Shown here: in pieces, positions 1 through 62,815 of the stretch
Layout of the letters: every line of letters begins with the position of its first letter
How positions within the stretch are numbered: position 1 is the first letter of the stretch
DNA from: Cephalotus follicularis
Taxonomy: Eukaryota; Streptophyta; Magnoliopsida; Oxalidales; Cephalotaceae
Reading direction: 5' to 3'
DNA: 64,000 bases
Assembly (NCBI GenBank): GCA_001972305.1
Contig: BDDD01001494.1
Span: 27,794 to 91,793 of the forward strand
Notes under the pieces: generated by a model
The model's input: the letters and a program-made list of their open reading frames with translations, nothing else
Told to the model about the DNA's origin: nothing
The model's database searches: none
Made by a program: the position numbers and the translations under genes

Positions 1-394
1 CGATGTCTTTCGTATGGACATCGATGTCTTTACTGATAAGCATCGATGTCATCACTCGAAATTGTCCTGTAACTTTGGCACCTAAAGACGTCGATGTCTT
101 TATGATAGGGATCGACTTCTTTCGTACGGACGTCGATGTCTTTACTGATAAGCATCGATGTCATCACTCGAAATTGTCCTGTAACTTCTGGCATGAAAGG
201 CGTCGATGTCTTCTTTAAAGGAGTCGATGTCTTTCTGTACGGACGTCGATGTTATTCCTTGAAAGTCGATGTCTTCTTCTGCAGATGGTATTTTTTGCTT
301 TGGTATTGAACTTGTAATTTCTTGCACGTCAAGTAAACTTGTTAAATGCAAATATGTTATCATCAAAACTAAGATTGAGACTAAATCGTCAACA
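1..394 (-). repeat. Sirevirus 3' LTR (truncated by window edge)
   Basis: Matches 3300-3582 closely. On the minus strand the LTR starts TGTTGACGATTTAG directly after the polypurine tract. It contains an internal duplication with a period of about 112 bp (the TACTGATAAG segment occurs at 31 and again at 143). Phased RTCRAY palindromes have cores at 20, 42, 90, 111, 132, 154, 202, 223, 244 and 265. Confidence 0.85.
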
Positions 395-421
395 ATCTCC
401 CCCTTTTTGATGATGACAAAA
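395..421 (-). promoter_or_regulatory. Sirevirus polypurine tract
   Basis: On the minus strand this reads GTCATCATCAAAAAGGGGGAG followed by AT and the LTR start. This purine run preceded by a TCATCATC stretch is a recognised hallmark of Sirevirus 3' ends and primes plus-strand DNA synthesis. Confidence 0.85.
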
Positions 422-1029
422 ATTTGCTCAAAAGGCATAAATTAACGTAATACCAATTTAAAAATATAAGTGAATACCAATAGAGACAAATTATAATGTA
501 AGCAATTGTAATGTTCATGCAATATCAAATAAGCAATGAGTAATGAGTCTTAGTCTTAATCTCCCATATCCATAAACTCAAGCATTTTGAGCCTATTTTC
601 CCAAAACATATTTCTTTTGAGCCATTAGCATTTCTCCCCCTTTTTTGTATAGTATCAAAAAGTTCTACAAAAGGAAAGAGATCATTAGCTCCCCCTTAAT
701 AATAGCAAGGGTAAAAAGAGTGAATATAGGCATTATGCATAAAAATATCAAAATATCGGCAATGAACATAATTATCGGCAATAGTTGAGAAAACACATTC
801 ATTCAACACAATTGTATCATAAATTAAATACACATTCATACAACACAATTCATAAAACTGTATAAACATCATCTCATAAACACAATTTCATAAACACATA
901 AACATTTCATTAATATCATAAATTCATTAACAAACATTGTTCTTACAAAAAAAATAAACACTTAGTTTCATTACAACACAACTAAAAACAAAAACAGCAA
1001 CAAGAAACAAAACAGAAACAACAACAAGA
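422..1029 (-). other. Sirevirus 3' untranslated region with extra PPT-like tracts
   Basis: AT-rich, no supported coding sequence. Two further purine runs on the minus strand (634-647, reading AAAAAAGGGGGAG, and 689-699, reading TTAAGGGGGAG) resemble the functional tract at 395-421. Redundant polypurine tracts upstream of the 3' LTR are known in Sireviruses. The part from 780 to 960 is a low-complexity run of CATAAACACA-like words. Confidence 0.6.
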
Positions 1030-2346
1030 TCAGTCAGCAGGAGGAGGGGCATCGGAATCGAATTCATCGCCCGAAGTCTCTTCGCAACGATCAATAGTTT
1101 TGGAATCGGCAAGTTTTCGTTCCATTCTTTTGAGACGCCTCTTAACGACTTTTAGATCGTAGTAGATGGTGTCATCAACATTTTCGAAGTCGAAATGAAG
1201 TATTTCATGATCTTTCTCCAATCTACCGAGCCGCGTGTTGACTTGCTCAAATTTATCTTCAAGCGGGGCTTGCATGGAAGCAAATTGAGAACGCATGAAC
1301 TCCATCACCCTGTCATAATCAGTAGAGGATGAGGTGCCTTGAGCTTGAGGCTGAGCAACTGCAGATTCTTCATGTGCTTCCCAAGGAGGATTGTCTTCTT
1401 GCTCTTCCCTTGCAATCCTTGGCACTTGATCAATTTTGGGGAAATAAGTCCATATTCCTTCTTGCTTTTTCCACCCCATCCGATTCAAAGTACTCTTGTT
1501 GTACGTGTGTTCTTTCTTCAATTTGGTTGCTATCTCTCCTTCTAGCCGAATATGACACTGTTGGAAGACTTTGGTAAGAATGGAGCCAAATGGTAGAACG
1601 GATTTCTTTTGTGAGAATGCTCTTACCATAGTCTTGAGCATGAGGAGAGGAAAACAAAACTCAATTTTGGAAAGGATGCACCACATGAGAAAAAATTGCA
1701 TCCTAGACAATTTTGCATACCCTACACCGGTGGGTAGAATTTGATGTACAATAAGATGGTGGAGTAGCCTATGGTCAACTGATAATCTATTGGTAGTCAG
1801 TGCCATATTTGGATGAACATTTGGATCATTTGGGTACAAAAGAGACAAAATTTGGTTAGGGTGAAAACCCTTAACCTCCGGCCATTTTTTGTGTTCAAAA
1901 ACATATAAACCGGTATGTGGAATGTGTAAGATAGATGCTAGAATCCTAGCATTTAGATAAATTCTCTCCCCTTTAACAGATGAGGACATTGCAAATTCCT
2001 CATTGGGGCTTGAAACCATTCGAAGGTTGGAGTAAAATTCCTTGACCAATTTTATGTAAAAAGGGTCAGAAATTTGAACAAGAGGGAGAAGGTGGAGATC
2101 ATCTAACCAAGAAACAAACGAAAACTCAGAAGAACAGAAATCCAAGTCGATATTTCTGCCTCCCATGACTCTTTTATCAACAAACACAACATTTCTCAAA
2201 GGAACTTGCTCTTCGGATTCGAAATCCGATTGGAGAACAGGGTCAGGAGAAGGCTCTCTAATCTCAAGCCTCTGCTTTTTAGCAGATTTCAGAGGCTGAG
2301 AGGAAGATGCAGCCTTCTTTTTGGCAGCAAGCTTTGACCTAACCAT
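1030..2346 (-). CDS. Sirevirus extra ORF, putative plant transposon protein
   Basis: Intact 438-aa ORF with no internal stop or frameshift, lying downstream of the pol stub on the same strand, in the place where Sireviruses carry an env-like or extra ORF. I chose the ATG at 2346 because it opens a lysine-rich N-terminus (MVRSKLAAKKK) typical of the family; an in-frame ATG at 2406 would add 20 residues. Residues about 60-255, beginning GGRNIDLDF, resemble the conserved domain catalogued as 'putative plant transposon protein' in many plant genomes. Residues about 345-415 (DRVMEFMRSQF to KRRLKRMERKL) look like a coiled coil, and the C-terminus is acidic. No signal peptide or clear membrane segment is visible. 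The function of the family is unknown. Intactness beside a destroyed pol is odd. It could alternatively have been captured from a host repeat. Confidence 0.7.
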   Translation of the reverse strand: MVRSKLAAKKKAASSSQPLKSAKKQRLEIREPSPDPVLQSDFESEEQVPLRNVVFVDKRVMGGRNIDLDFCSSEFSFVSWLDDLHLLPLVQISDPFYIKLVKEFYSNLRMVSSPNEEFAMSSSVKGERIYLNARILASILHIPHTGLYVFEHKKWPEVKGFHPNQILSLLYPNDPNVHPNMALTTNRLSVDHRLLHHLIVHQILPTGVGYAKLSRMQFFLMWCILSKIEFCFPLLMLKTMVRAFSQKKSVLPFGSILTKVFQQCHIRLEGEIATKLKKEHTYNKSTLNRMGWKKQEGIWTYFPKIDQVPRIAREEQEDNPPWEAHEESAVAQPQAQGTSSSTDYDRVMEFMRSQFASMQAPLEDKFEQVNTRLGRLEKDHEILHFDFENVDDTIYYDLKVVKRRLKRMERKLADSKTIDRCEETSGDEFDSDAPPPAD

Positions 2347-3202: not shown

Positions 3203-3208
3203 TTGTTG

Positions 3209-3582
3209 CTTTCATCACATCGACTTCTTCTGTGGGAGTCGATGTCTTTTCTGGGAAATGCAGGTAGCTCTAGAAAGGCGTCGATGTCTATGGAAAGGCG
3301 TCGATGTCTTTCATACGGACGTCGATGTCTTTACTGATAAGCATCGATGTCATCACTCGAAATTGTCCTGTAACTTCTGGCATGAAAGGCGTCGATGTCT
3401 TCTTTAAAGGAGTCGCTGTCTTTCTGTACGGATGTCGATGTTATTCCTTGAAGGTCGATGTCTTCTTCTGCAGATGGTATTTTTGCTTTGGTATTGAACT
3501 TGTAATTTCTTGCACATCAAGTAAACTTGTTAAATGCAAATATGTTATCATCAAAACTAAGATTGAGACTAAATCATCAACA
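3209..3582 (-). repeat. Sirevirus 5' LTR
   Basis: Near-identical to the window-edge LTR over 3300-3582, ending on the plus strand in ATCATCAACA. The left boundary is the deletion breakpoint, placed by loss of RNase H coding. It contains phased palindromes with cores at 3219, 3238, 3280, 3300, 3321 and 3343. The element inserted into a D-type LTR that continues at 3583. Confidence 0.8.
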
Positions 3583-5856: not shown

Positions 5857-6010
5857 GTCGACACTTTGTGTGGACAAGTGGACGGTTTATACATTGCAAC
5901 TGTCGACGCCTAAGACTGGCTGTCGATGCCTTGCGTTGATCAGTCGACGCTTATGGGTGACCTGTCGATGCCAGAGTGATAGCGTCAACGCCTAGTATGA
6001 TGGAGTTGAG
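5857..6010 (+). repeat. Phased palindrome cluster, E-type
   Basis: Cores at 5857, 5902, 5922, 5943, 5964, 5984 and 6005, so the last six are spaced 20, 21, 21, 20 and 21 bp. Variants are GTCGAC, GTCGAT, GTCAAC and GTTGAG, with the sequence between them unrelated from unit to unit. Confidence 0.75.
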
Positions 6011-12298: not shown

Positions 12299-12565
12299 GT
12301 CGGCTGGATTCCTTACCAGTCGGCTGTTCTGGGTCGAGCAGTACAAGGTACGGCTGGTTTCTTCTACCAGTCAACTGTCAAAAAGTCAGTCGGCTGTTAT
12401 CCTTCAATAGTGGACTATATCGGTGCAGCAGTTCATAAAATCGTTCAGATAACACTTCCTGCCATTTCCTCGGCAGGATATCACAAGCACAGTCGACTGT
12501 TTCCCTTCAACATTCGGCTGTTTTGATTTAAAAGCCGGTTGTCTTCCTTCGATAGTCGACTGTTC
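12299..12565 (-). repeat. Phased palindrome cluster, A1 3' LTR
   Basis: Variants AGTCGGCTG, AGTCAACTG, AGTCGACTG; the companion cluster in the 5' LTR is at 44265-44535. The arms are CAG…CTG, unlike element A2, which uses GCG…CGC at the same LTR position. Confidence 0.75.
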
Positions 12566-13479
12566 TGGGAAGCCAGTTACATGCAACCCAAAATATTACT
12601 CAAACGAATCATTGCAAGCAACCCACATATGTTCATAAGACAGAATATCATCCAACTGTTCTCAAAAGGTTCATAGAACACAACAGTAAACATGCATTTT
12701 ATCCTGCAATTCAACACCATCATAAAACTCAACATGCATGTACACAACCTCAATTGATTCTCGACAGTAGGCATGGAAGATGGAAAATCAGTAATAATCA
12801 TGGCACAACAACTGAAATCCACAGCTCACACAACCATGCATTTAATCACAGGACATCCAGTAACTTTGAGCACAAAATACAAACATAATGTAACACCCCC
12901 GGACGGCGGGAGTCATTACAGGGTCATATCAAACATAACATTACTTATTAAATCACAAGTTTACTTTATTAACCACAAACAGCCAGAAACGTGGCAGTCT
13001 TCTCATAACATTAAAACTTAACAATTTAACATATTAAGTGGTTGCGGAAAACCCAAAACATAATTCAGTTCCAATTTTAAAAACATAAAACATAATAATC
13101 CATGTTTCTGACCACTAAACATAACATAAGGATCACTCTCCTAAGGATCCAACACATAGGGTGGTCATCACTCAATCACACTTTCCCCCGCTGCTCCTGA
13201 AACCTGCCGCATGGAAACAAAAACGCGGTTGAGCAAACCTCAGTACGGATAAGGGAAATAAAACAGTAAACGATAATTTGAAAGCAGTAAAATCTCAATA
13301 ATAACAGAAATCATAGTAATTAGAACAATTGCATAATTGTAAAATCACATTTGTACTTTCATAATTTCCATATAACTTCGGAACAATTACGCAATCATTT
13401 CATAAAATCATTTACGAATCATACTGAGTCACATACATATCACATAACATAAATTTGGCAAGGGAGGCGCTAATTCCAC

Positions 13480-13740
13480 ATGCCCACTAGAATTGAAGTG
13501 TACGGCACTACACAAGTCAATTCTCACATACACATGTCCGATCACACCTCGGACCACATATCTGAATTCAACTCAGATCACATAAACTAGAATCGATTCA
13601 TACGCCTCTATCATACATAGCGGATCCACAAACCCACCTCATGGGATTTGTTCATACACTTAGAGACGCCGTAGTCTAGTCACACCACTACGGAAGTGTC
13701 ACGTCCCCGTGCCAGGCCCACGACGTGCCTATGGATACGC
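13480..13740 (+). repeat. Array of short hairpins in B1 3' LTR
   Basis: Successive short stems with unrelated sequence: AGAATTGA/TCAATTCT enclosing GTGT/ACAC, GTCCGA/TCGGAC, ATCTGA/TCAGAT, CCGTAGT/ACTACGG and CCTATGG/CCATAGG. Several loops contain TCACA or a similar word. The same array is present in the 5' LTR (20150-20450). Confidence 0.65.
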
Positions 13741-14262
13741 CCCATAGGTGGGTACAATACTCAGTATTTATTTCAAAGGAAAATAATTGATTTATCAAAA
13801 TCAATTTAAACTTTCATAAAATATGTTTCCTCACAATATATGTAGAAAACCGCTCACAACGGTATCATAACATATCGTATCAATTCATATTATATCATTT
13901 CATATCGTATAGATAAAGTCGGGGTCATAAACCAACTTTAAATTCAAAATGTGTCAAAACCATAAAACATTAAAATTTTCATAAACGAATAAGTATATTA
14001 AAACTGTTTCAGTTTGAATGTCAGATAGCCAATGAACAGAAAATCCGTACCTTATGCGCTCACAAAGTACTTACGAATAGACATTTTAAACGGAATCCAC
14101 TTGAAGCACAACAATCTAAAAGACATTCAAAATCATACGTGTAAGAGTCTAAGACACATCAGAAGCATTAAACAGACTCTTAACAATGTTTGGAAAAGAT
14201 TCGGATCGATTCGGGGATCAAACGACTCAAAACAGTTTAAAACAGCACATTCCAGGGCAAAA

Positions 14263-14470
14263 CAGTCGACTAAAACAGGGCTCCAGTCGACTGGGGAAGC
14301 AAGACAGCCGACTATTCAAAAGGTCCAGTCGACTACTCAAATAAAAGTGCAGGCAGTCGACTGTGTTCATCCCTCCAGTCGACTACACAACCAAGGCAGT
14401 CGACTGCATTCATGTGGCAGTCGGCTATCCAACCATTCCAGCCGACTGTCCATAGAGACAGCCGACTGTT
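14263..14470 (-). repeat. Phased palindrome cluster, B1 3' LTR (type example)
   Basis: Ten cores at 14265, 14286, 14307, 14328, 14356, 14378, 14399, 14420, 14441 and 14461: spacings 21, 21, 21, 28, 22, 21, 21, 21, 20. The core is GTCGAC or GCCGAC/GTCGGC in CAG…CTG arms. The bases between are not conserved. Confidence 0.9.
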
Positions 14471-15603
14471 CTGGGCGACAGAACAGTTGGAAAATCGATG
14501 ATTTGCTACTGAAAATGGTTCAAATGGTTTCTACATTAAACTAGAGACATATGGACATAAACATATGATCACATATGACTTGCAGGTGACATAAAAACAC
14601 AGATTTGACAAGGAAACAACCTGACAGTGATTTATCTTTCAAAAGGAAGCAAGAAGACAATGCATGTATATGTCCAGATTCTGTCTCTAATCGATTATAG
14701 ATGTTATAAAAAAAGTTTGTGATACATCTATGAGTATAAAACGTGTTGACAATATCACTAACACAATGACAACATGTTTAGGCAGGAATCAATGACCCAA
14801 AGACACCAAGAGCACAAAAACTCAAAGTCTTCCATTAGAACAAGATTATCACTAGAGAAGACGAATCTACTAACCTGTAATGATTCATAGAACACAAGAA
14901 CAGTAGAAGAAATACTAGCACACACCCACAATTCGACTGTGAACAAAAACAGAGGAAGAAGAATACAAAACCAAAACATACTTAGACATACATAGCGAAC
15001 TAAGAAAATTCAATCCAAAGAAACAACTAAAGGATCGAATTTACCTCTTCTGACTTTGAAGAATGAATTACACAGCAGCTTGTTACACTCTAACAAGGCA
15101 GAATCGGCAGTGGCTTGCAAGAAAGATGAGGGCAACATATAAAATGGCAAAGGCACTCTATGAAAGGAAAAAGGAGGAGACACAATTTGACAAAAAGGGG
15201 AAGAAAGGAGGATTTTCAGGAATTTGAAATAGGAAAAGAGAGACTTAGCATGTGATATTGATGGTTGGAAGAAGGAATTACGGGAAAAAAGGAGGAAAGT
15301 AGGAGAAAATGATAAAATAGGAAAAAGGAAAAATAAAGAATTAATAATAAAAGAAATTAAGGGATTTTAAAATAAAAGATAAATAATTTGTTTTTAATAA
15401 AATAATTTTGGATTATAATAAAATAAATAAAACCCAAACCCAACATAGCATAACATACCCAAAATTTCAGACTGGTATCAGTCAGCTCAATTCACATAAA
15501 CCCAAATCATAGGGCAACCAGACTTTTAAAATTAAACAAAATTAAAAGCCCAAAAACACATAAAATCCGAAAAAATACATTTACGAACGAGCAGGGCATT
15601 ACA

Positions 15604-15625
15604 TCCACCGCCCCCTAAAAAGAAG
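15604..15625 (-). promoter_or_regulatory. B1 polypurine tract
   Basis: The minus strand reads CTTTTTAGGGGGCGGTGGA directly before the 3' LTR. This is the expected primer for plus-strand synthesis; the equivalent in B2 is at 35699-35716. Confidence 0.75.
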
Positions 15626-15658
15626 ATTTCGTCCAGAAATCATAAACACAAACATACC

Positions 15659-16597
15659 TCAAACAAACAAGTGCGGATAACGCTCCCGAATATGCTCCTC
15701 AAGCTCCCAAGTAGCTTCATGTTCGGGATGATTCCTCCACAACACTTTCACAAAAGAAACGGTCTTGCTATGTGTCACCCGTTCCTGTCGATCCAGAATA
15801 GCCTCAGCCTCCTCGTCACAATATAAATCCTCTCGAATACTGTCCAAGGGATTGTGAACCACATGCAGGGGATGATACTGATAACCCCTCAAAAAAGACA
15901 CGTGGAACACATTATGGACATGTGCTAACTGCGGAGGCAAAGCTAACCGATAAGCAACCGCGCCTATCTTCTCCAGAACTTCAAAAGGCCCGATAAACCG
16001 CGGACTCAACTTTCCTTTCAGTCCAAAACGTCGGACTCCTTTCCAAGGTGAAACTTTCAAGAACACATGTTTGCCCACCTTAAACTCCAAGTCCCTCCGA
16101 TGTCTGTCCGCATAACTCTTCTGTCGAGATTGAGCCGCCTTCAATCTCTCCCTTGCTATAGCCACTTTCTCAGTAGTGACCTGCACTAGCTCGGGTCCTT
16201 CAATAACTCGCTCTCCAACCTCATCCCAACATGTCGGAGCACGACACCTCCTCCCATATAGAGCTTCGAATGGAGCCATACCGATACTAGCATGCCAACT
16301 GTTATTGTAGGCAAACTCCACGAAGCTCAAATACTCATCCCAGCTCCCAGTCCACTCCAAAGTACAAGACCTCAACATATCTTCTAAGGTCTGGATGGTT
16401 CTCTCAGTCTGCCCATCTGTCTGTGGATGAAAAGCTGTACTGTAACTGAGCCTTGTACCCCAAGCTTTCTGGAACCCTTTCCAAAACCTCGAAGTGAAAC
16501 GAGGATCCCTATCCGAAACAATGGATACCGGAGTCCCATGCAGTCTCACTATCTCCTGCTGAAACACCTCAGCCAAACGATCAACAGAAAAGTCTTC
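15659..16597 (-). pseudogene. pol: B1 integrase core, C-terminal domain and chromodomain-like tail
   Basis: 305-aa open piece ending RYPHLFV. It contains integrase catalytic motifs: the second Asp in VSDRDPRF and the Glu in [12 protein letters not shown]. Then follow the [20 protein letters not shown] block, the [16 protein letters not shown] linker, [12 protein letters not shown], and a tail with [16 protein letters not shown] typical of Tekay-type chromodomain-like ends. It is separated from the preceding integrase piece by a premature stop at about 16598 (LAI*EDF, CGA to TGA). Confidence 0.92.
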
Positions 16598-17548
16598 TCA
16601 TATAGCTAAGAAGTGAGCCGGTTTAGTCAATCGATCCACTACTACCCAGATAGCATCATTTCTTATGAGAGTTCTTGGCAAACCCGTAATAAAGTCCATC
16701 GATATACTTTCCCATTTCCAAACCGGAACTTCCAAGGGTTGTAACAAACCACTAGCACGCTGGTGTTCAATCTTTACCTGCTGACAGATCAAACACTTCC
16801 CAACGTACTCCGCCACATCCCTTTTCATTCCATTCCACCAGAAATTCTTCTTCACGTCTCTATACATTTTCGTAGAACCCGGATGTATAGAAACTGGAGA
16901 ACGGTGTGCCTCTGACAAAACAGCGTCTCGGATAGAAGAATCTAACGAAACACACAACCGATTACCCAATCATATCACACCATGTTCATCCATACAGAAC
17001 TCTGATTGCTTACCCTTTTCAACATTCTGGACTAAGGCCCAATGCTCACCATCGTCACTCTGAGCTGTCTTAATTCGAGATACAAGAGTAGGGTCAACAT
17101 TCATCACAGCAATACAACCTTCAGAACCCCGAACATACAGATGCAAATCCATCCGCTCCATATCGGCTATCAACTGCGGCTGAGTAAGCAAAGCCGCTAC
17201 ACTCCCTGAACTCTTCCGACTAGGAGCATCAGCTACCACATTCGGTTTACCAGGATGGTACTGAATATTCAAATCATAGTCTTTCAGAAGTTCTAACCAC
17301 CTTCTCTGACGCATGTTCAACTCTTTCTGTGTAAAGATATACTTGAGACTTTTATGATCGGTAAAGACGTCACAAGTTTCTCCATACAAGTAGTGCCTCC
17401 AAATCATCAATGCAAACACTACCGCTGCCAACTCGAGATCATGTGTAGGATAGTTCACTTCATAAGGCTTCAACTGTACTCTCTGTAGTCTATGCATAAC
17501 CTCATAGACCCATCTTTCTTCTTCACAAAAAGAACGGGAGCACCCCAC
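16598..17548 (-). pseudogene. pol: B1 truncated RNase H and integrase N-terminus
   Basis: The upstream part (16970-17548) begins in RT ([10 protein letters not shown] region) and jumps to the RNase H motif [18 protein letters not shown]. The whole RT palm with its FIDD motif and the first RNase H Asp are therefore deleted; the junction shows TTCAACT microhomology. It continues through [11 protein letters not shown] and [11 protein letters not shown] stop (CGA to TGA) near 16970 precedes the integrase zinc finger (AHRSPVSIHPGS … CLICQQVK) and first catalytic Asp (SMDFITGLP). Non-functional. Confidence 0.9.
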
Positions 17549-18306
17549 GGCGAAACACTCGGCCGAATGAAACCTCGATCCAACAGCTCTTGCAACTATT
17601 CCTTCAACTCTTGCAGTTCCAACGGTGCCATTCTGTAAGGTGCCTTAGATAAAGGTGCTGCTCCGGGAATGAGTTCGATGGTAAACTCCACTTCCCGTTG
17701 CGGTGGCAAACCCGGTAACTCCTCCGGAAACACATAAGAAAATTCTCTGACCACAGGATAGTCTTCAAGGCGAGGCTCAACCTTTGAGACATCCTTCACA
17801 ACAGCTAAGAAACCTTCAGTGCCCTTAGCCACCAATTTCCTAGCCTTCAGAACTGATATAACTTTCACTTCTTTCCTCGGCTGTGAACCCTGATAAATAA
17901 ACTCAGGACTATTCACATCCCCAAATAGAACTCTCCGAGCATGGAAATCAATCGTAGCCTGATGACGATCCAACTAGTTCATTCCCAAAATCGTATCGAA
18001 GTCATACATATCGATAGGCAAAAGGTCCGCATCACGAACCCGATCATCAAAAATAAGAGGACAAGCATAAAAGCACTCAGATATCACAACAGAAGAACCC
18101 GTAGGGGTCGAAAGAACCAAAGATGGATCAAGCAACTGGGAAGACATCCCAAGATGCCGAACAAAAGACCTCGCTACAACCGAGTGGGTCGATCCAGTGT
18201 CATACAAAACATAAGCCCTACGGTTACCAACATAAATAAAGCCCGAAACAGTACATGGTGTGTTAGCTGCCTGCTGAGTCGTGATAGCAAAGACACGACC
18301 TCCCAC
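17549..18306 (-). pseudogene. pol: B1 protease and N-terminal reverse transcriptase
   Basis: The protease part (17974-18306) has the retropepsin motif LYDTGSTHSVV and MYDFDTILGMN, then a Trp-to-stop change (TGG to TAG). The second piece (17596-17973) carries the linker [28 protein letters not shown] and the RT entry [20 protein letters not shown], ending in a CAG-to-TAG stop. Both stops are repaired in the sister copy B2, so they arose by point mutation. Confidence 0.9.
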
Positions 18307-19407
18307 ATTGCGCTATCCATGATCTACATTATCCCCTTTCCTTTCCTTCGCACGAGGGTCAGGACAATCCTTCACGAAGTGCCCTTTCTGTCCACACACA
18401 AAACAGGCCCCAATAGACTTGTAGCACACTGCCACCGGATGCTGTCTACCACACACATCACATTTGGCAATCTGGTCATCCGCAGCTCCCTGAGTCTGCC
18501 TCGGGTCATTATCGGGCTGTTGCTGTCCCCGGTTATCATTTCTCTTCCCTCGCTTACCATTCCTATTCTTATTCTGTCCAGAACCTTGCCCCTGAGAATC
18601 AACTATGTTTCTCTTTCTGTCAAACTCCTGTCGAGCAGCCTAGAAATCTAACCTTTCCAGCTCAATATTCTTAGCCGCATTAGCCACTTCACATACATCA
18701 GCAAACCTGGTGTTGAGTAATTTACCCCGGAGCTGATAATGTAACTTCCATTTGAATTTTTCTGCCTGTTCCAATGCTGTCCCTATCGCAGAACCAGCAA
18801 AACCAGCAAGCCTAGTGAAACGGGTCAAGAACTCTGTCACCGACTCTCCATCCTTATGTCTGGTATTCATAAACTCTCTGGCGTAAGCCTCCTTATCAGC
18901 GGTGGGAAAGTACTGCTGATAAAAGACCTTGCAAAACTCAGACCAGGTCAAAGTCTCCGCATAGTTGCCACCCTTAGCCAAAACCACAGCTTTCCACCAT
19001 TTCTGCGCATCACCCTCAAGCTTGTACACAGCTAACTTAATCTTCTGTTCGTCACTGCAACCAAGCACATCAAAGATCTTGTCCATATTAGCAATCCAGT
19101 GCTCAGCTTCCACCGAAGTCACGGTTGAGTTGAAAGACTGCGGTCTCTGCTTCTGGAACCGCTCTAGCCCAACATAAGTGGGCGTATCAGTCCTGTCCCC
19201 AGCATCTCTTCCCAACTGGACATCAGCTGGAGCATCATTAGCAGCAACCGGCTCCCTACGGTCCTGATTCTGATTCTGCTCACTCAACATGCGTCATATC
19301 TTCTGAGGGACTGCCAGTCGTACAAGCTCCTCCATAGTAGGCTCATTTCTAGCTTCCTGAGCCTCAACGGGTGCAGTTCTTCGAGCAGCATTCTTTGTAC
19401 GTGCCAT
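18307..19407 (-). pseudogene. gag: B1 gag with two zinc knuckles
   Basis: Starts MARTKNAARRTAPVEA at 19407, as in B2. Matrix/capsid region 18640-19290 includes GLERFQKQRPQSFNS and EAEHWIANMDKIFDVLGCSDEQKIKLAVYKLEGDA. Stops at about 19292 (CGA to TGA), 18640 (CAG to TAG) and about 18312 break it. Downstream zinc knuckles read CDVCGRQHPVAVC-like and CFVCGQKGHFVKDC, and bind RNA during packaging in the family. Confidence 0.9.
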
Positions 19408-19566
19408 CTACGAAAAGGCACCCAAAACATAAAACATCACAAGGAACAAAAACAGAAAACAGAAAACATATCAGAAAATCATAACGAAGCAGCCTAACCC
19501 AATGTCTACCCAATCTCACAGGTCAAACCTAGTTAGGTCTTCTAATGAAACAAAACCTAAACCTGT

Positions 19567-19577
19567 CTCTGATACCA
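19567..19577 (-). promoter_or_regulatory. B1 primer binding site (tRNA-iMet)
   Basis: The minus strand reads TGGTATCAGAG five bases inside the 5' LTR, matching the initiator tRNA-Met 3' end used by most plant LTR elements. The remaining leader to the gag ATG (19408-19566) is non-coding. Confidence 0.85.
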
Positions 19578-19582
19578 TAATC

Positions 19583-26369: not shown

Positions 26370-26540
26370 GCCGACGCCTACAGTCACACCGTCGACACTT
26401 TAAGCCCTGTTAAGTACACAAAACGCACAGCTAAAGGTTGTGATTAGGCGCACATCGTCGACCTTTAAATGCCCAGCATCGACACTTAAAGGCGCATAAT
26501 CGCCGATGCCTAAAAGTAACCGGCGACGCTTTAGGCGTGT
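26370..26540 (+). repeat. Phased palindrome cluster, C1 5' LTR, U3 end
   Basis: Cores at 26370, 26391, 26457, 26478, 26502 and 26523, spacings mostly 21 or multiples of about 22. It lies 150-303 bp from the LTR start, the same place as in the A family. The 3' LTR copy is at 33678-33845. Confidence 0.8.
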
Positions 26541-40774: not shown

Positions 40775-42668
40775 GCTAGAGGTTGAAGGAGCTTAAAGTT
40801 CAAAGGGGAAAGACTTGGAGCACCACCTGGATTTGGTAAGTAATCCAAAATTCCTTGATATAGTTAAGGTTGTTAGTGATGTAGCGTACTGAGGATTGAC
40901 ACACATGTCCATTGCTAACAAACAATTACGGAGTAAACCTGTAATTAGAGATTGCATGGGTATAAATGGTAAAAGGGAATTTTGAAGCTTAGAAACTAAT
41001 GATAAGCTATGGTTTAAGTTATAAGTTGCTACCATGATTTGATAACAAGACTAGCTCACTGGTATTAATGTATAAACCTTAAACATGCAATTGTTTAGGC
41101 TAAATTCTGCAATATTGGGAGATTGAAAGGAGGGTGAAGAACCTGGACATAAAGTGAGAGGTCAATTCAATTTGGCCTTGGGATAGCAAATGAGGTAGGG
41201 TATTTTGACATGTTTTTGAACATATAACATGTATAATATGTTGTGATGGTTCGTACTTCATTGCATGTCAAATTGAACTGAATTGGGTTGATTGTGTGTA
41301 TTCCTCTATTTTGAAACTGCTCCTGGAATTCGTATTAATGCCAGAAGCTTCGACGCTTACACAGAAACTGTCTACGCTTTGGTGCAAAAATGGCATAATA
41401 AGGCTTAGAATGTCGACGCCTAAGTTGTGTAATGTCGACGCCTAGTCATTAACCGTCGACGCTTATGTAGTGACAGTCGACGCTTTAGAACAGTAAGATT
41501 AGAAATGCTCGGATTGATTGATTGATTTGATTGTGGTTGCAAACATCCTTGATTGGCGATGTTATAACTACTGTTACTGTTATTTGGTGAAATTACTACT
41601 GTTACGAATACATATTCAGGAATTTTACCAACCTAATGTTTTAAGCATAAACAATGATTTTTAACGGTTTTCTAATGGAAATCTTATTGTCATACTACTA
41701 CTGTTATTTTTCCTCTTGATAGAGGCACTGCTACTCTTTTTTTCTCCAATTGAGAACCACTACTGCATCGATATCGTTTTCCTCCTATGAGATGTAAGAT
41801 AAATGAACTGTTAATGTTTCTAAAGAAACAACCTTATATTGCACATTATACATACGTGTGATGCTCTTATTGAATTGAATTTACTGCATTGATTGTCTAT
41901 GTTATTGCCGATTAGTCGAGTGATGGCAGATGTCACTGGCTAACGGAGGTGGTCCTATGTGCCAGGAGTTGGCTAGAGTACACACCAAAACTGCCTGCAA
42001 TGCAGAGCTTGATTGTTAAACTTCCCGCTAATGCCGGTACTAAATGTTACCTTATCTATCATCTTCGGAGTGTAGTGTGATAGATAGGTGGTGCACAGTT
42101 GGTGCTAGGAGTTAGCGACATGTGACACCCAAACCACTATACTGATTGATTCTACCCTTGTGCGGTATTCTTGCATTTTACTGTCTATGGCCACTAGGCA
42201 TGATTTCGTATATATTGGAATACTATATATATATGCCATTTCATATTAACTGTCATGCGTATTTACATTTATCGATTCAATTGCATGCTTTATCTTCCTA
42301 CTTAGCCAAGTGAGGACAACGGCTAACCCCTACAATTTCATGTTAAGCAAGGACGTTCGGAATTTGCTGCTGAAGCTTGGAGAGCTTCTATTTTCGATTA
42401 ACGTTGTTATTTTATGATGTTGTACTGTATTGTAATGAACGGTTCATACCCCGTATCACTGTTGTACTTCCTTATGAAATGAAAATTTGTTGAATTGTAC
42501 CTGCACGTAGTATGGGCTGCGTGCGGATGACTTGTATTTTATATTCCGGCTTACTGAATGCTTTCGCATATTGTTTATGAATTGTTTAATGAAATGCTGG
42601 ATTATACTTATATATCTGATATCACCATGTATGCTTGTCATAACGTAGCTGAATAACGGGGTGTGACA
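40775..42668 (+). repeat. C1 3' LTR, right part
   Basis: Resumes at GCTAG after B2 and matches 26901-28789, ending GGGGTGTGACA, followed by the GATGG target duplication. The main palindrome cluster is at 41345-41490. Confidence 0.95.
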
Positions 42669-44264: not shown

Positions 44265-44535
44265 GTCGGCTGGATTCCTTACCAATCGGATATTCTGGGT
44301 CGAGCAGTACAAGGTAGTCGGCTGGTTTCTTTAACCCGTCAACTGTCAAAAAGGCAGTTGGCTGTTATCCTTCAACAGTCGACTGTATCGGTGCAGCAGT
44401 TCATGAAATGTTCAGATAAAACTTCCCACCATTTCCTGGGCAGGATATCGCAAGCACAGTAGACCGTTTCCCTTCAACAGTAGGTTGTTTTGGTTTAGCA
44501 GTCGACTGTCTTCCTTCGACAGTCGACTGTTCTGG
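44265..44535 (-). repeat. Phased palindrome cluster, A1 5' LTR, main
   Basis: Cores at 44265, 44285, 44317, 44338, 44357, 44378, then after a gap 44459, 44480, 44501 and 44522: spacing 19-21 within each run. The gap of 81 is close to four steps. CAG…CTG arms. Confidence 0.85.
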
Positions 44536-45352: not shown

Positions 45353-45498
45353 GTCTGCTGTTCTTCCCTGACAGTCGGCTGTCCTCTTGGCTGTGGTTGC
45401 CAGGTGGCTCGACAGCCCTCCAGTCGACTGGTTCGTCCCACCAGTCGACTGTTCCATTAAACGGTTCACCAGTCGGCTGGTCCATAGTACAAGTCGAC
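45353..45498 (-). repeat. Phased palindrome cluster, A1 5' LTR, U3 end
   Basis: Cores at 45353, 45374, 45423, 45444, 45472 and 45493; spacings 21, 49, 21, 28, 21. Confidence 0.82.
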
Positions 45499-47235: not shown

Positions 47236-48855
47236 TCTAAAGCGTCGACGTTTTTTTCCTTAGGCGTCGACGCTTATGTCCCTTAAGCGTCGACGTTCAG
47301 TCCCATAGCATCAGCGCTTTCAGTGTCTGGGCGTCGATATCTCCTCCCATAGACGTCGACGTTTAAAGCGCATTCAACATATAAAATGCAGTTCACAGTA
47401 CTAAGTGTCAACGCTTACCAAAGGCGTCGACGGTTTCAAGCAGCAGTCGTCTTCTTCCTCACGACGTGACCAAACAGTAACAATTTCACCATAAGAACAA
47501 GTAATCCAACATGTATAAAGCTCAGTAAACTGACATGCAACATCATATTACACATCCAGTATAACATAGCATCATTTCAGCGATTAAAAACAGTTCAGCA
47601 GGCCATGCAAACTATGCATAAACATGATTGAACAAACACAAATTATTGAACACAAAATACAATTATGGCTTCCCCTACCTCTGATTCCAAGTTTGGAATC
47701 GCAGTAGCAGCAGCATAGTCAAACCACAGGTTCAATTGTCGAACCTTTCCCTGTAACAGTTGAATCAAACCCGGTTCTCGCCAACTGATCAATTCCTCAA
47801 TGCCAAATCCAATTGCCACTCACACACTGCACATACAACACATTTCCGTTATGCTCGACACACAAAACATTGCCGTCACCGAAACGCCGACCAGATTCTA
47901 GCCAACTCATCCAGCTTATGAAATGCACATAAACGGGTTCCACATCGAATTGTCTACACAGAACTGCTCAAAACTCTTCATGAATCGGCGCCAAACGCCA
48001 CGCCACGGTTGGAAGCGAGTTATGACTCACTGAGTCAACTCGTCGGACCTCAACAGGTCCGATCGCCACCCAAAAATGCCACACATTCACCAGTTATGCA
48101 CACCACTGCCTGAGACTCGCCGAGACTCGGTGCCAAACGCCGTGTTTCAGGCGGTAGTGAGTCGACTTGCCGAGTCTACTCGGCCAAGTGATTCCAGCTG
48201 ATTACTGCCGAATCACGTCTCACCGGTGGTCAAAATGGCTAGAGCTAGCCCTCTTCACCAAAACCCACCCACTCTGCGACACTAACGGCGTCGAAAAACG
48301 CCGGTGGATGTTACGCACAGTAACGACAGAGGAGAAGAAAAAAGAAGAAGAAAGGGAAGGGGAAGGAGGAGTTACCGTCCGTTGGCGTGCGTGGGTTGAC
48401 CGTCGTGCTCTCCCGGTCCGGTGCTTAGCTCTGGCGTTCTCTCCCGTCCTCTCTCCCGCTTTCTCTCCCAATCTCTCTCTCTGGCGCGGGTGCACAGAGA
48501 GCCTGCTGCCTCTTTCTTGCATGGGTGCATGATGCTCCCGTGTTTCCCTCTCCCTATCTCATAACATTGCCTCCTCCTTAGTATTTTCTGGTAAAATACT
48601 AAGGTATGGGTCCCGATTATTCCGCGAATTGTGACATAAATTATCCGAACAGCCACCAAAATAATCGAAATAATATTTTTAACATTGGGCTTTACTGTCG
48701 CGCATTAAAAATAGGCTTTATTAGCTGTTTTGGCCAACATAATTACGGCTTCATGCGTAATGCCTTTTTATTACTCTGGGACTCTATCCGTTTTATTTAC
48801 GATCATACATGCACCAATTTCAATATAATTATTTACGAAATTTAGGGGCGTTACA
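47236..48855 (-). repeat. D-type LTR fragment, minus orientation
   Basis: Homologous in the same orientation to 3710-5382 and inverted relative to 46464-47235. It contains a phased cluster (47244-47440), donor-like CCTCTGATT/AGGTAGGGG motif (about 47670-47690 on the minus strand), a CT-rich leader (48420-48560), and ends GGGGCGTTACA at 48855. ORF-like stretches (for example 48167-48532) have no recognised domain. Confidence 0.75.
47244..47440 (-). repeat. Phased palindrome cluster, D-type LTR
   Basis: Cores at 47244, 47265, 47289, 47310, 47333 and 47355; spacings 21, 24, 21, 23, 22. GCGTCGACG arms. Confidence 0.8.
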
Positions 48856-50951: not shown

Positions 50952-51796
50952 AGTAGTGCCCCCGACCCGAGTCCGCTTTATGCTCAAAGCGAGCTCTGAA
51001 GATCGGTGCGTTACGTGGGTGTGACCTCTGACCGTCAAATCATATAACCATTTAACGATCCATTTCATGTCATTTAATCTTGTCTTAGATTTAAAACCTA
51101 ACATTATTACTTAATAACTTCACAGGATCGCATATGCTTACATCTTTGAAACTCCAATTTCAAAATATCATTTTCTCATTATCATGATCATTTCTAATAC
51201 CTTTGCATTTGTACATCACATAACATGTAACCTTACATAGCGGAAAAAAAACATAATCTTATCATATCATAAAACAATCATATACTCGCCTTTACCATTA
51301 ACATCTCATACACTCAAGTATGTTCAATAACTTTTGATATCATCATCTTACATAAAAACATCATAACCTATAGCATTCATTTCCTTACTTTAACATCTAT
51401 ACATCGTTTATCATAAAACATTACACAGCGGAAAACATTAACATATGACATTAAAACATAACTTCATAGCATATCATACTTCCTTTCCTTACACTTCTTT
51501 TGCGAACTCCCTCTAAACCTCGCAACTTCACGATCAACGGTTCCTGGAAGATTTATTTGAAAACAAGACATTGAAAAGAGTGAGGTTTAAAGAGCTCAGT
51601 AAGAATCATAGTCATAAAACATTATCGAAACCCGTTATTTTTTATAATCTTTATCAAAATGTTTCCAGTTCATACATTTCAAAACGTCGTTGAAAACCAT
51701 CTTCTCGTTTTATAAAACTAGAACATTTCACTATCAACATACTCTTTTCTGATATCTTTCATAAAATCAGAACATTTCTAAAATCATACATTTTCT

Positions 51797-52605
51797 GGTG
51801 TATCACACCGGCATACTTGAAAACAATCAAAAACGTTTTCCTATCATACTTTCTTTTGGCTTGTATCACAGCCATACTTGAAAACATCAGTAAAATCGTT
51901 TTCTTCACATTCATAAACAAAACATCTTTAAAACACTTTTTTTTTCTTTTCATATCTCATGAAACAGAACATTTCATAAAACTTGGTGGTCGTGAACCTC
52001 TAATGAACCCTTTACACCGCTTCACCGGGGCATTGTGCACTCCCCGGCTACTATCCTTACATCACATGCATGTCCGTGAGCACGCTCGGCTTCATTAACA
52101 TTGAGCATCTCGCTCCATTCCCCTTGGATCACAATCCAAGGGTGGTTCATTCATTAATCTTTTACTAGATTAATCCTCACTGGATCACAATCCAGTAGCT
52201 GTTCATGCCATAAATTCATTTCATAAAACATTTCTTAATACTTTGAGTGACCAGCTCAAAGAATTCATAAGACATTTCTCTTCATTCGAGTAATTAACTC
52301 AAATGCATTCATAAAACATTTCTCTTAATTTGAGTACTTAACTCAAATACATTCATAAAACATTTTTCTCCATTTGAGTACTTAACTCAAATGCATTCAT
52401 AAAACATTTCTCTTCATTTGAGTACTAAACTCAAATGCATTCATAAAATCTTTCTTAATACCTTGAGTGATCAGCTCAAAGCATTCATAAAACATCATCG
52501 TAAAAAATTTCTAAAACTGGTTTTCCATATACAAACCTTCATTTCATTTCATTTCACAATCATCAAACATTTCTCATCACTTTGAGTAACTTAACTCAAA
52601 ACCTT
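51797..52605 (+). repeat. Hairpin array, including a 44-bp tandem repeat
   Basis: At least a dozen short inverted repeats with different stems. Examples: GGTGT/ACACC (51797), CCTTGGAT/ATCCAAGG around CACA (52122-52141), ATTAATC/GATTAAT (52153-52174), ACTGGAT/ATCCAGT around CACA (near 52179-52196), CTTTGAG/CTCAAAG (52241-52261) and TTTGAGT/ACTCAAA (near 52328, 52372 and 52416). From 52220 to 52497 the unit repeats with an exact 44-bp step: TTCATAA at 52264, 52308, 52352, 52396, 52440 and 52484. Confidence 0.85.
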
Positions 52606-53358
52606 CATAAAAATAATTTTGCACAACCTTTCTAAATCTTGAATTTCATGGGGAAATAAAAACTTTCATAGAAAACTTAAAAAATAAATATTAAAGTAGA
52701 CATCTTAAAGAATTCATCGAGATAAAAATCATAAAATTCCATTGAGAAACGAAGCTGTAATGAATTTTTAAAGTTGTAGTTTCCTTTTGAAAAGGGGACC
52801 TGAGCAGTAGAAGAAAACATAGGTTTTCATCAAGAATTCGACAGAATTTTGAGATGCATAAAACATAACAGTTAAAGTAGACATCTTAAGGTTTTCAAAA
52901 CATTCAACCATTTAAAATTTCATCTCGAAACGAGCAAGATATGAATTAAACTATCTGCTGCATAATTTTAAATTAAAACAGAGGAAGCTTTGACATAAAT
53001 AGGTATAGAATTTCCATACCTCACTTGATCTCCTTCTCTTCTTCTCTCCGAAGCATCCTCCTCTATAATCTCAGCAGAATAGCAACCCCTTCATCAGCTG
53101 AATTTACACATATCTATATAGGAGAGGCAAACTTGGAGGCCAAGCTTGCATGGTGTCATCCATGACCTCACCCATGTGAGCTTGCCTCCTTAGCAGCCCA
53201 TGTGATGGAATTCCATCCAATCCAATGATTCCACCTGCCCCTTTCTAGCAGAAAAACATAAGTCTTCCATCCCTTGCTTCACACGTGTCCTACAATGCAT
53301 TTAAATCCTCCTAAATGGGATAAAAAGCTAGAATTTTGCACCTGACACAGGGCAAAGC

Positions 53359-53575
53359 GTCGACTCTTTCTCCCTAAGCGTCATCGGTCACATGCTTATC
53401 CTGAGTTCTCCAACTTCTATCCCGACTAAAGAGCTGACGCTTTCCTACAAAGCATCGCCACTTTAAGTCTCCACTAGGTCAACCTCAATACTTGATCTCG
53501 AAGGGTCGACTTTTACATTTGGAGCGTCGTCGGTTGCCTCTAAAGCGTCGACTCTTTACTTGGAACCGTCGGCGC
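53359..53575 (-). repeat. Phased palindrome cluster, solo LTR
   Basis: Cores at 53359, 53380, 53434, 53454, 53478, 53505, 53525, 53547 and 53568. Many are degenerate (GTCATC, ATCGCC), but the 20-22 bp step is retained at both ends of the cluster. Confidence 0.72.
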
Positions 53576-54326
53576 TTTAGACATTTCCAGCACAACACAA
53601 TAACCAATTTCTGTTTTCTTCCAGGGGCGCTGCCTCCGAGCCCCTGCCCGCTGACCGGACAACTAGACCCCCCGTCCGCTAACCGGGGAGCGGAACCCCC
53701 GAACCCCCCGAGCGTAGGGTCATACTACGGGTCCCTTGAAATATTTGCCAATTACACAATAGGAAATCATCTTTCCATAATTAATATCTTTAATGGAAAT
53801 TCGGGTCATTACACCAACTCCTGGCTCCTAGGTCAACCCTACCACTAGCCGGCGCTGGTAGTCTCCGCCATGTAACTAGTGGCTCAAGCATAAAAACAGT
53901 AATTTCACAGAGCAACACAGTGAATTGATACAGTAAACAGTACAGTAAATAGTACAGTAGTGATTGTTTAGATCGACAACAGGCAGTTCATTTCAAAATA
54001 GTTTTTAAGCTGATAACATTTGAAATGTGTATTTCCAATAGATAGACAATACCTTAAACAATTTAGTAGTGGAAATCGCTTTCCAAAGATGTTCGAAAAT
54101 ATAACAATATTCATTTTATATTTTCGTACCCAACATGGTAGTTTTCAAGTCGTGTATTCACTTCTAATATAACAATACTTAGAAATCATAATCAAATTAT
54201 AACCAGTGAATAACCAGCAGTAAACAGTGCATATGCAATGCATACAAATTCTTAGATGCTACACAATAGGAATCGGGATCGATTCGTATCGTTAAATAAG
54301 AGAACTCCCAAACAATACAAGATGGC

Positions 54327-54605
54327 GTCGATGTCTATTATTAGGCGTCGATGTCTTTGTCCATCAGCGTCGACGTTCAAGTCCTTAGTGTCAGCGCTTT
54401 CCACTGTTTGAAGATGTCAATGTCCGTCTTTATATGCATCGATGCTCAAGGTATGGAACCTTAAACGTCAGTGTATTGCTTAAGGCGTCGACGCGTTAAG
54501 GTAGGAACCTTAGGCGTTGACGTGTAATACATCAAAATCAAAGCAGATAACCCAAGGGCGTCGATGTTATTTAAAGACGTCGACGTGTTTCGAACCCCAG
54601 TCGTC
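54327..54605 (-). repeat. Phased palindrome cluster, A2 3' LTR, main
   Basis: First cores at 54327, 54347 and 54369, then continuing with GCGTCGACG, GCATCGATGC and GCGTTGACG variants. It is at the same LTR position as the CAG-armed cluster of A1, but with GCG/ACG arms. The 5' LTR copy is at 61650-61930. Confidence 0.8.
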
Positions 54606-55338: not shown

Positions 55339-55490
55339 ATCGACGTCTTGTTTAGACATCGATGTCTTTTCCCCTTTTTACACGAGGGCGTCGATGTTCT
55401 CACTTGCATCGATGTGCATGTGCTTGCAGTTACGTGTGTCTCTCTGTTCCAAAGGCATCGATGCATTCAGAAAGGCGTCGACGCGATTTC
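55339..55490 (-). repeat. Phased palindrome cluster, A2 3' LTR, U3 end
   Basis: GCATCGACG, ACATCGATG, GCGTCGATG and GCGTCGACGC sites at about 18-21 bp steps (for example 55339, 55358, 55390, 55408, 55457, 55477). The 5' LTR copy is at 62660-62815. Confidence 0.75.
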
Positions 55491-55678: not shown

Positions 55679-55704
55679 ATTTCGTCCTCGAAATTAAAAC
55701 CATA

Positions 55705-60363: not shown

Positions 60364-61649
60364 TTGTTGTCATACACCGTTTTCGACAAACGCACATAAA
60401 GGTGGTAAAGGCAATTAACATAAAGATTCAGCTTATGTGAAAACCGTAAAATTTAAACTTTTCAAATAAGATATCAGTTGCGGAAGCATTAAAGTCATAA
60501 GCTGAAAAACATGTAATGTGCATCCCATACCACACGCTACTCAAAACAAGTCTGTCATAGTTAAAAGCCCACAAAATGGAGCGTTATCCATAATACATTA
60601 TTACAACCCATCGTTGAACAAAACCAGATTATTACAAACCAGAAGAATATAAAACAAACAACAGCAACATAAGGCTTCTTCTTCGTCCAAGCTAGTCCAA
60701 CCAGTCCACTAGATCAATCTGTAAAGTAGGGGGTTAGCCTTTGTCCTCACTCGGCTAAGTCATAAAGGTAGCTCGGGATCAACATTAAATGCATGTCATG
60801 TGATGTATGCATAAATGATGCAGTGCAGGAAATACCAGTTTATATATACATGAAAAATATATTTACAATAACAGTACAGTAAAAATAACAGTAGGGACAT
60901 ATATATGAAATATATATGTATGCAATAACAGTACAGTAGTAGTCCGACCAGGGCTACATCAACAGGCATAGTAATGTCTGAAAAGGACCAACAGGTAGTA
61001 CAGTAAGTCCGTAAAAGAACCTCAATAGGCAGGTAGTATGTGTAAGGCCGCCATTTCCTGGCCCCGCATTACACTCCCACTTTGGTCCCTTCTCCAGGAA
61101 ACCAAGCGAGGCAACAATACAGTGCAATGAGTTACCCAGCCAACTCTTGGCTCCTAGGTCAATCCTACCACTAGTCGACGCTGGCAATCTCCGCCATGCA
61201 ACTAGTGGCTCAAGCACAAACACAGTAATTTCACAGAGCAACACAGTGAATCGATATAGTAAAAGTGCAGTAAATAGTACAGTAGTGATCGTTTAGATCA
61301 ACAACAGGCAGTTCATGTCAAAATATTTTCAAAGGTGCTAACATTTGAAATGTGTATTTCCAATAGATAGACAATACCTTAAACAGTTTAGTAGCAAAAA
61401 TCGCTTTCCAAAGATGTTCGAAAATATAGCAGTATTAATTTTATATTTTCGTACCCAACATAGTAGTTTTCGACTCGTATATGCACTTCTAATGTAACAA
61501 TACTTAGAAATCATAATCAAATGATAAAGAGTCAATAACAAGCAGTAAACAGTACATATGCAATGCATACAAATGCTTAAATGCGTCCCAACAGGAATCG
61601 GGATCGATTCGTATCGTTAAATAAGAGAACTCCAAAACAGTACAAGAAG

Positions 61650-61930
61650 GCGTCGCTGTCTATTATTAGACGTCGATGTCTCTGTCCCTCAACATCGACG
61701 TTCAAGCCCTTAGTGTCAGCGCTTTCCACTGTTTGAAGACGTCGATGTCCATATTTATATGCATCGACGCTCAAGGTATGGAACCTTAAACGTCAGCGTA
61801 TTGCTTAAGGTGTCGACGCGTTAAGGAAGGAACCTTAGTCGTCGACGTGTAATACGTTAAAATCCAAGAAGATAACCCTAGGGCGTCGATGTTATTTAAA
61901 GACGTCGACGTGTTTCGAACGCCAGTCGTC
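61650..61930 (-). repeat. Phased palindrome cluster, A2 5' LTR, main
   Basis: GCGTCGCTG, ACGTCGATG, GCATCGACGC and GTCGACGCG variants matching 54327-54605. Confidence 0.8.
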
Positions 61931-62659
61931 TTCTTCCTCACGATGTGATAAACAATGACCATCAAAATCCACATACATGCAAGATAACATGTAATCAAGG
62001 TAGGAAACCACCATGCAGATACATATCACATATCCAGCATAATGTGGCATTGATCCAGTGATGAAACAATTCAATAATCATGCAATCTATGCACCAAAAC
62101 CATAGTCCAAGAATGAACATCAATCTCAAGAATACAGTTATGGCTTCCCCTACCTTTACGTTCCAAGTTAGGAACTAGAAAGTCCACCTCTTTAAGTCCT
62201 AGAACCGGCCACAGCAGCTCCAAAGATTGTCCCAATGCTGCTAGCCCACAGCTTCAACTTCCAAGCTCCAAAACGCTCAACAATGGTGGTTCCCTTCTCT
62301 CTTCCATTTTCTGTATCTTATTCTAGGGTTTTAGCCGAACCAAGGATGAAGAGAGGAGCATTTATGCTTTGGGAACCCTCTCTCTCCTTCTCTATGTCTA
62401 TTGCATGCACCCTCTCCCCTGTCCTCCACCTTCACTTACTATTTTTGTCCCTTTTCTCTTCATTTTTGCAGGTTGCAGGTCATGAAGGTTCAGCCCCCTT
62501 GCATGCCAACGGTTGAGGACACGTTTTGGTGCATGTCTGGCATCGGACCGCTTGGCCAACATGTTGCATTTGGTGCTCCTAGATGCCTGCAAGGTGATAC
62601 AGAATTGTTTCCATTAGGACGTTACTCTTTCAGCAGAATAACGTGCCCCTCATTCGATG

Positions 62660-62815
62660 TTACGCATCGACGTCTTCTTTAGACGTCGATGTCTTTTCCC
62701 CTTTTTACACGAGGGCGTCGATGTTCTCAGTTGCATCGACGTGCATATGCATGCAGTTACGTGCGTCTCTCTGTTCCAAAGGCATCGATGCGTTCAGAAA
62801 GACGTCGATGCATTT
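62660..62815 (-). repeat. Phased palindrome cluster, A2 5' LTR, U3 end
   Basis: GCATCGACG, ACGTCGATG, GCGTCGATG, GCATCGATGC and ACGTCGATGC sites. Two sites that read ATCGAT in the 3' LTR read GTCGAT or ATCGAC here, showing independent decay of the two LTRs. Confidence 0.78.

Follow-up and report, generated by a model that had tools for sequence, protein, structure and literature searches.

The question raised by a stretch of 64,000 nucleotides of the Cephalotus follicularis genome (contig BDDD01001494.1, positions 27,794 to 91,793; hereafter the window) is what the arrays of short, regularly spaced palindromes found in the long terminal repeats (LTRs) of its retrotransposons are for. The window is a set of nested LTR elements: a gypsy element of family B lies inside an A element and a second B-type copy inside C, and further A copies, families D and E, a solo-LTR-like insertion and, at the left end, a Sirevirus (copia) complete the picture. 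The identity of the last rests on its anatomy (RNase H end recognized by eye, polypurine tract, LTR start TGTTG, PF20167 gene). The arrays are probably cis-regulatory binding platforms for a dimeric factor, with two recognition classes that the elements track.

The regularity of the arrays comes first. The initial annotation had reported more than twenty clusters of a 6-bp palindrome, RTCRAY; a looser rule than the strict one below gives 23 chains in the window. Of the 30 core positions that it listed, 24 read RTCRAY exactly in place and six do not: 14307, 14420, 14441 and 14461 in the B1 array are GCCGAC or GTCGGC, 6005 is GTTGAG, and 244 in the Sirevirus is shifted by one, GTCGAT standing at 245. 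In the window, RTCRAY pairs are most frequent at distances of 21 (24 pairs), 22 (16) and 20 (13), with 0–3 pairs per distance at 8–18 and 0–4 at 23–40. When a strict cluster is defined as at least three sites with steps of 19–23, the window contains 16 clusters, compared to none in each of 50 first-order random sequences, and 20 random 10-kb genome stretches contain 13, compared to none in each of 20 matched random sets. The step ranges 9–13, 14–18, 24–28, 29–33 and 34–38 give 0–1 clusters in both the window and the genome sample, and double steps (39–43) give 7 and 6, respectively. Across the whole genome (1.58 Gb, 9,746 contigs), 105,145 pairs of GTCGAC lie at step 21, compared to 1,224 for the reversed word CAGCTG, and 253,230 compared to 4,319 at steps 12–42 together. 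GTCGAC pairs number 68 at step 16 and 1,396 over steps 9–12, for a chance expectation of about 240 per step; the excess of step 21 over step 16 is about 1,500-fold. In the random sample, GTCGAC ranks third among the 64 palindromic 6-mers for pairs 19–23 bp apart, after TATATA and ATATAT. The check set for the observation, a 21-bp peak above random or control sequence, thus gives a positive result in the window, the random sample and the whole genome, and the phased palindromes are confirmed as real and genome-wide. Other words may recur similarly: the 1,224 step-21 pairs of CAGCTG hint that another palindrome may form such arrays, and TCGTTT and ATCGTT recur at 19–23 bp (28 and 25 pairs) in the random sample, perhaps as a satellite.

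Among the first 100 GTCGAC pairs listed, all from one contig, the steps are 21 (45 pairs), 20 (18), 22 (7), 28 (7), 42 (6), 19 (5) and others, with a single pair at 31–32. The repeat unit is therefore a step of about 21 bp, one-turn and three-turn steps not being favoured. Recurrence at about two helical turns had been taken to mean that all sites face the same side of the DNA. The recurrence stands, but runs are interrupted by steps such as 28, so that the sites do not all face one side, and a strict helical register across whole arrays is not supported.

The RTCRAY core recurs, but the true motif is longer and comes as two palindromes that seldom mix. Type I is CAGTCGACTG, its repeated part being limited to about 10 bp; RCGTCGACGY is type II, whose weaker AT-rich outer arms extend to about 16 bp. 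Sites with A before and T after the core were assigned to type I, those with C before or G after it to type II, and the remainder left untyped. Among the typed arrays of the window and the sample, 55 of 58 are pure (loci L121–L128, overlapping or picked by motif, were left out), and none of 48 exact-GTCGAC clusters in the first 100 pairs listed (steps 12–42) mixes the two. Genome-wide, the inner flanks of pairs at step 21 are T..A in 71,026 cases, G..C in 12,540, T..C in 4,576 and G..A in 4,663; for T..C, 13,943 would be expected. In the window, the Sirevirus, A4/A5, C, D, E and the solo LTR carry type II, and A1, A2 and B carry type I.

The two types also differ in their spacers, which had been described as not conserved. 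For type I this is correct: agreement between neighbouring sites is 0.22–0.41, compared to 0.23–0.33 between arrays (32 pairs). Since the spacers are at background and the whole unit is not conserved, an ordinary 21-bp satellite is rejected for this type. In type II the spacers are partly alike near the core: at most offsets outside the core, agreement is somewhat higher between neighbours than with sites of other arrays (65 pairs), for example 0.51 versus 0.28 at −6 and 0.60 versus 0.44 at +10, which indicates that some tandem duplication has happened. Loci L123, L124, L125 and L127, overlapping or picked by motif, were left out of the neighbour comparison, and L126, which overlaps L127, was omitted from one comparison.

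Types agree between separate arrays of one LTR. The LTRs of gypsy A and C carry two arrays, about 100–300 bp (5′ array) and about 1.0–1.4 kb (mid array) from the LTR start; only the mid array is visible in B and only the 5′ array in the solo LTR. Both arrays are of the same type in the A1, A2 (one odd site), A4, A5, C1, L129 and L146 LTRs. The C-like LTRs outside the window were chosen after the window pattern had been seen, and their mid arrays were already known to be type I (that of L146 was typed by eye); the 5′ arrays of L129 and L146 proved to be type I as well, whereas none was visible in L128. Array pairs of the same type make up 15 of 16 at distances of 550–1300 bp, versus 42 of 70 at 2.5–9 kb (p = 0.009, related copies included). 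The A and C families each occur in both types, with arrays at matching positions. Thus, A1/A2 and A4/A5 LTRs align at 73–80% downstream of the mid array and over a short upstream block, C1 and L146 LTRs align at 72–78% on both sides of the array, and the array types differ in each case.

Sharing of the arrays between copia (Sirevirus) and gypsy LTRs, as claimed, is seen. The gypsy families themselves had been called mutually unrelated, which they are not: their pol-region DNA is 69–76% alike across A, B, C and a piece beside D, so that sharing among these is not independent. The open reading frames (ORFs) of B and C encode gypsy-type pol domains, with a chromodomain in both B-type ORFs. Nor are the arrays confined to LTRs, since they also stand in front of PF20167 genes. 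In the window Sirevirus, on the minus strand, the LTR starts near 394, after the polypurine tract, and carries an array of 10 phased sites at 20–270, nine of type II and one untyped. A 438-aa PF20167 ORF occupies the 'ENV' position (1033–2346), and upstream of it, in an array at 2553–2822, eight phased sites (2553–2740) comprise seven of type II and one of type I. A second piece of Sirevirus LTR with a type II array lies at 3219–3582 (minus strand), 3274–3582 being 95% identical to 84–394. This piece, running over 3205–3582 from the LTR 5′ end at 3582, adjoins the end of a copia-like RNase H coding sequence, which indicates that the pol part was cut at that point.

The type of array follows the lineage of the PF20167 gene. 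A second lineage, whose proteins share about 35% identity with that of the window, was sampled by fetching 16 genes from 150 scored of 13,073 candidates. Phased sites are present upstream of 14 of the 15 usable genes, all of type II except a single untyped one in L160; in the remaining gene, L154, cores are present upstream and none is phased. L156, at first sight a lineage-2 gene with a type I array, was dropped, because its alignment to related genes ends inside the gene and, by eye, the upstream sequence resembles the LTR start of a C-like gypsy element. With the window and L148 genes, whose upstream arrays are mainly type II, type II arrays precede 16 of 17 usable genes across two lineages. 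A third lineage is represented by L122, a PF20167 gene beside a copia gag and 23% identical to the window protein. All 18 copies fetched (from 150 scored of 11,556 candidates) have type I arrays upstream, with sites at about −124, −145, −164 and −185 from the ATG in most copies. Downstream stretches, each with an LTR start, carry phased type I arrays in four of five cases of the L122 lineage, the fifth having one unphased type I site; in the single lineage-2 stretch, L193, type II accounts for 14 of the 15 phased sites. A TATATAA box lies 20 bp past the start of a phased core in 11 of 13 lineage-2 genes with an identified ATG, and none was found with the same pattern before the window and L148 genes. 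From its sequence this arrangement looks like promoter anatomy; it is not proof of activity. In tblastn searches of the window and L121–L148, a PF20167 gene was found only in the window Sirevirus, L148 and L122–L124; the gypsy elements seen therefore do not encode one. Two oddities of layout may be recorded here. In the Sirevirus-like element L122 (and by eye in L178 and L182) the array and the PF20167-like gene come immediately after copia gag, identified by Pfam in L122, and no pol is seen in between; and in L193, at about 1560–1720, a sequence that by eye resembles the PF20167 gene tail in inverted orientation lies beyond the array, so that two gene tails may face one array.

Finally, the cores outlast their surroundings in old copies. 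In eight older copy pairs (below 90% identity), 125 of 139 CpG bases are kept in cores versus 176 of 247 elsewhere (p = 1e-5), and 183 of 196 non-CpG bases versus 797 of 980 in spacers (p = 1e-5). In four younger pairs CpG bases are kept no better in cores (83 of 98) than elsewhere (326 of 393), and the non-CpG counts are 112 of 122 in cores versus 1402 of 1492 in spacers. An excess in older and not in younger pairs is what is expected if cores are maintained in active lineages and decay after insertion.

From these observations I infer the existence, the dimerism and the direction of action of a factor. A palindrome repeated at a fixed step with free spacers argues for protein dimers on DNA, and two seldom-mixing types that agree across the arrays of one element argue that the specificity of a trans-acting factor is being followed. 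A dimeric, sequence-specific DNA-binding factor would occupy each palindrome, and the step of about 21 bp would let several dimers bind next to one another, for the most part on the same face in any one run. There would be two recognition classes, one for each palindrome type, and one class per element, serving the 5′ and the mid array in the LTRs of gypsy A and C and, in the Sireviruses examined, the LTR together with the PF20167-gene promoter. A lineage that switched class would change its arrays together, as expected if they track the specificity of the factor. The sites would probably activate or derepress transcription. The binding platform for a dimeric host factor put forward in the initial annotation is partly supported: recurrence at about two turns, unrelated type I spacers, copia–gypsy sharing and signs of selection all fit a platform for a dimeric factor, and strict same-face phasing is not supported.

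Several points weigh against this model. Type II neighbours are somewhat alike outside the core. Clusters 700–1500 bp apart comprise, among the pairs listed, seven I-I, two I-II and two with an untyped member; one type II site is also present in 7 of the 18 type I promoters of the L122 lineage, and the type II promoter array of the window includes one of type I. Because the copies of one lineage are relatives, the many promoters amount to about three lineages. Among younger pairs, cores keep their non-CpG bases slightly less well than the sequence overall (112 of 122 versus 6666 of 6938, p = 0.03). I chose the conservation pairs from alignments, some of them belong to the same families, and alignments may be biased towards matching cores.

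What, then, would the factor be? A host transcription factor, for instance a DREB/AP2-like protein reading RYCGAC, is a possibility to be taken seriously, although the odds are somewhat against it. Several LTR lineages would have recruited it, so that sharing would reflect convergence. The consensus of barley HvCBF1 is (G/a)(C/t)CGAC. The variants GTCGAC, ATCGAC and GCCGAC match this consensus, and arrays common to copia and gypsy LTRs are as such a factor would have them. However, in both types the palindrome reaches past the 6-mer, more than a monomeric site would call for, and two non-mixing types would require two factors. Furthermore, two GTCGAC elements failed to recruit Arabidopsis CBF3, a result given as 'data not shown' in the available text of PMC5209670.

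The candidate within the elements is the PF20167 protein, and a tentative suggestion, rather doubtful as it stands, is that this protein binds the arrays of its own promoter and LTRs. Sharing would then mean that gypsy elements exploit a Sirevirus factor in trans. The window ORF (minus strand, 1030–2445) has 349 relatives; the best 120 of these are, with a single exception that matches the window protein at 100%, C. follicularis proteins of up to 93% identity. The window protein has a basic N-terminus and a helical, coiled-coil-like tail, although 10 of 300 shuffled tails score equally high, and no hydrophobic N-terminus. The match between gene lineage and array type (type II before the window and L148 genes and before 14 of 15 usable lineage-2 genes, type I before all 18 of L122 type) is as this suggestion predicts, but linkage alone would be expected to keep gene and promoter together. 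Pfam recognizes no other domain in the protein, and no DNA-binding domain; the AlphaFold2 model is unusable (mean predicted local distance difference test score, pLDDT, of 38), only the tail helices at 340–413 reaching 50–70 in most blocks. A comparison of Sireviruses with and without RM boxes, their palindromic repeated motifs, cuts both ways: in the available sections of Bousios 2010 (PMC2829016), nine RM-bearing Sireviruses with ENV have RMs in the linker and four without ENV have none there, and six ENV-containing Sireviruses lack repeats, which lowers the odds. A fuller version is slightly more speculative still: PF20167 proteins, annotated as ENV, might be no envelope proteins at all but a family of dimeric nuclear factors that read the arrays of their own promoters and LTRs, in activation or anti-silencing, and diverge along with the palindrome types, while gypsy elements repeatedly acquire matching arrays, a form of regulatory parasitism.

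Two explanations do without such a factor. It is unlikely that the arrays matter as RNA or single-strand hairpins, as sources of small interfering RNA. RNA of the B1 array folds far better than shuffled sequence (z = −8.3), as do the C1, A4 and S arrays less markedly (z = −2.5 to −3.6), and maize palindromes are hotspots of small RNA (PMC5311732, available text). Yet when spacers were shuffled and sites kept, 13–85 of 100 sequences folded equally well in six of seven arrays, which shows that the sites alone give the fold; the exception was the pre-ENV array (1 of 100). The RNA hairpin is therefore not favoured as the selected feature. Plain minisatellite growth and recombination between LTRs, devoid of function, is improbable to a like degree. 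It would explain why type II neighbours are alike outside the core and why Tandem Repeats Finder calls some arrays 20–23 bp repeats, but not why type I spacers are unrelated, why cores outlast spacers in older pairs or why separate arrays of one LTR agree in type. The last explanation, that a host repressor or the methylation machinery is drawn to the sites and the arrays thereby mark elements for silencing, is very unlikely: every ideal core contains a CpG, but elements should lose such sites, yet core CpGs outlast other CpGs in older pairs.

The remaining arrays of the window are disposed as follows. Family E has a type II array at 5857–5989 (plus strand). The A1 LTR is split by the nested B element (12889–22281, minus strand, LTRs of about 2.7 kb, target site duplication CATAA), which leaves its type I mid array at 12299–12415 and its type I 5′ array at 22778–22923 (both minus). 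Type I arrays on the minus strand mark the B1 (14265–14466, 10 sites), B2 (20962–21142) and B4 (39461–39599) LTRs. On the plus strand, type II arrays are present in C1 (5′, 26370–26483; mid, 27472–27604) and C2 (mid, 41349–41481). The others are on the minus strand: the type I arrays of A2 (mid, 44299–44527, with one site typed II; 5′, 45423–45498) and the type II arrays of D (47244–47451), of the solo-LTR-like insertion at 50952–53813 (53505–53573), of A4 (mid, 54327–54605; 5′, 55339–55482) and of A5 (mid, 61672–61930; 5′, 62666–62809). The solo-LTR-like insertion also contains a 44-bp tandem repeat of 6.4 copies at 52212–52495. Upstream of the A, C and D mid arrays, a splice-donor-like block includes GGTAGGGG (A2, about 44866; A4, about 54828; C1, about 27317; D, about 47679), and judging from sequence these mid arrays may lie inside a leader intron. 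A cross-species search of genome contigs returned five loci, in bacterial records; the pieces at L149–L152 are akin to the gypsy pol query (49–65% identity) and perhaps represent contamination. No relative was found in a search of viral contigs.

How do these arrays relate to known systems? According to the available sections of Bousios 2010 (PMC2829016), Sirevirus RM boxes are palindromic, precede both the LTR TATA and ENV, number 8 to 32 copies, are confined to Sireviruses within the set of Ty1/copia elements compared and mostly bear a CGG-CCG signature (Tnd-1 lacks it); the Vitis form is CGGTCGACCG, centred on GTCGAC, and no common binder is named there. The window Sirevirus resembles this description in having a palindromic repeated motif in the LTR and copies upstream of ENV (2553–2822, before the ORF start at 2346). 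Unlike most RM boxes, it has an RTCGAY core, which the Vitis form shares, and no CGG-CCG signature. The further differences from RM boxes as described are the steps of about 21 bp, the two types that follow PF20167 lineages and the presence of arrays in gypsy LTRs, whose host elements, carrying gypsy-type pol domains, fall outside the RM-box definition. No report of this motif in gypsy LTRs, and nothing relevant on palindromes in Tekay or gypsy LTRs, was found in the open-licence literature as represented by titles and abstract starts; in open-licence papers, likewise, none was found on DNA binding or nuclear localization of a Sirevirus envelope-like protein, and the DUF1985/VANC literature yielded nothing useful. 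The Sirevirus part is thus the known RM box; sharing with gypsy LTRs, types that change in concert and the association with PF20167 lineages go beyond it. By analogy, the closest working system would be VANC of Arabidopsis VANDAL elements, with its target motif YAGTATTAY (Hosaka et al. 2017, PMC5735166, available text). There, too, a short motif is repeated in non-coding parts of the element, varies between relatives and is proposed to coevolve with an element-encoded protein. However, VANDAL is not an LTR element and its motifs are non-palindromic tandem repeats, whereas here the sites are palindromes, type I spacers are unrelated and the protein is only a candidate. Maize Sirevirus LTRs, whose palindromes are small-RNA hotspots (Bousios et al. 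2016, as cited in the available text of PMC5311732), are similar in having a palindrome-rich, fast-evolving region, but a hairpin role is not favoured here by the fold control.

With the same sites in two retrotransposon superfamilies, a single spacing shared by more than 100,000 pairs, two cleanly separated types and one protein as the evident candidate, the binder and its specificity are directly testable. If the arrays are indeed binding platforms of this kind, the LTR elements of one genome would compete for, or parasitise, one regulatory code.

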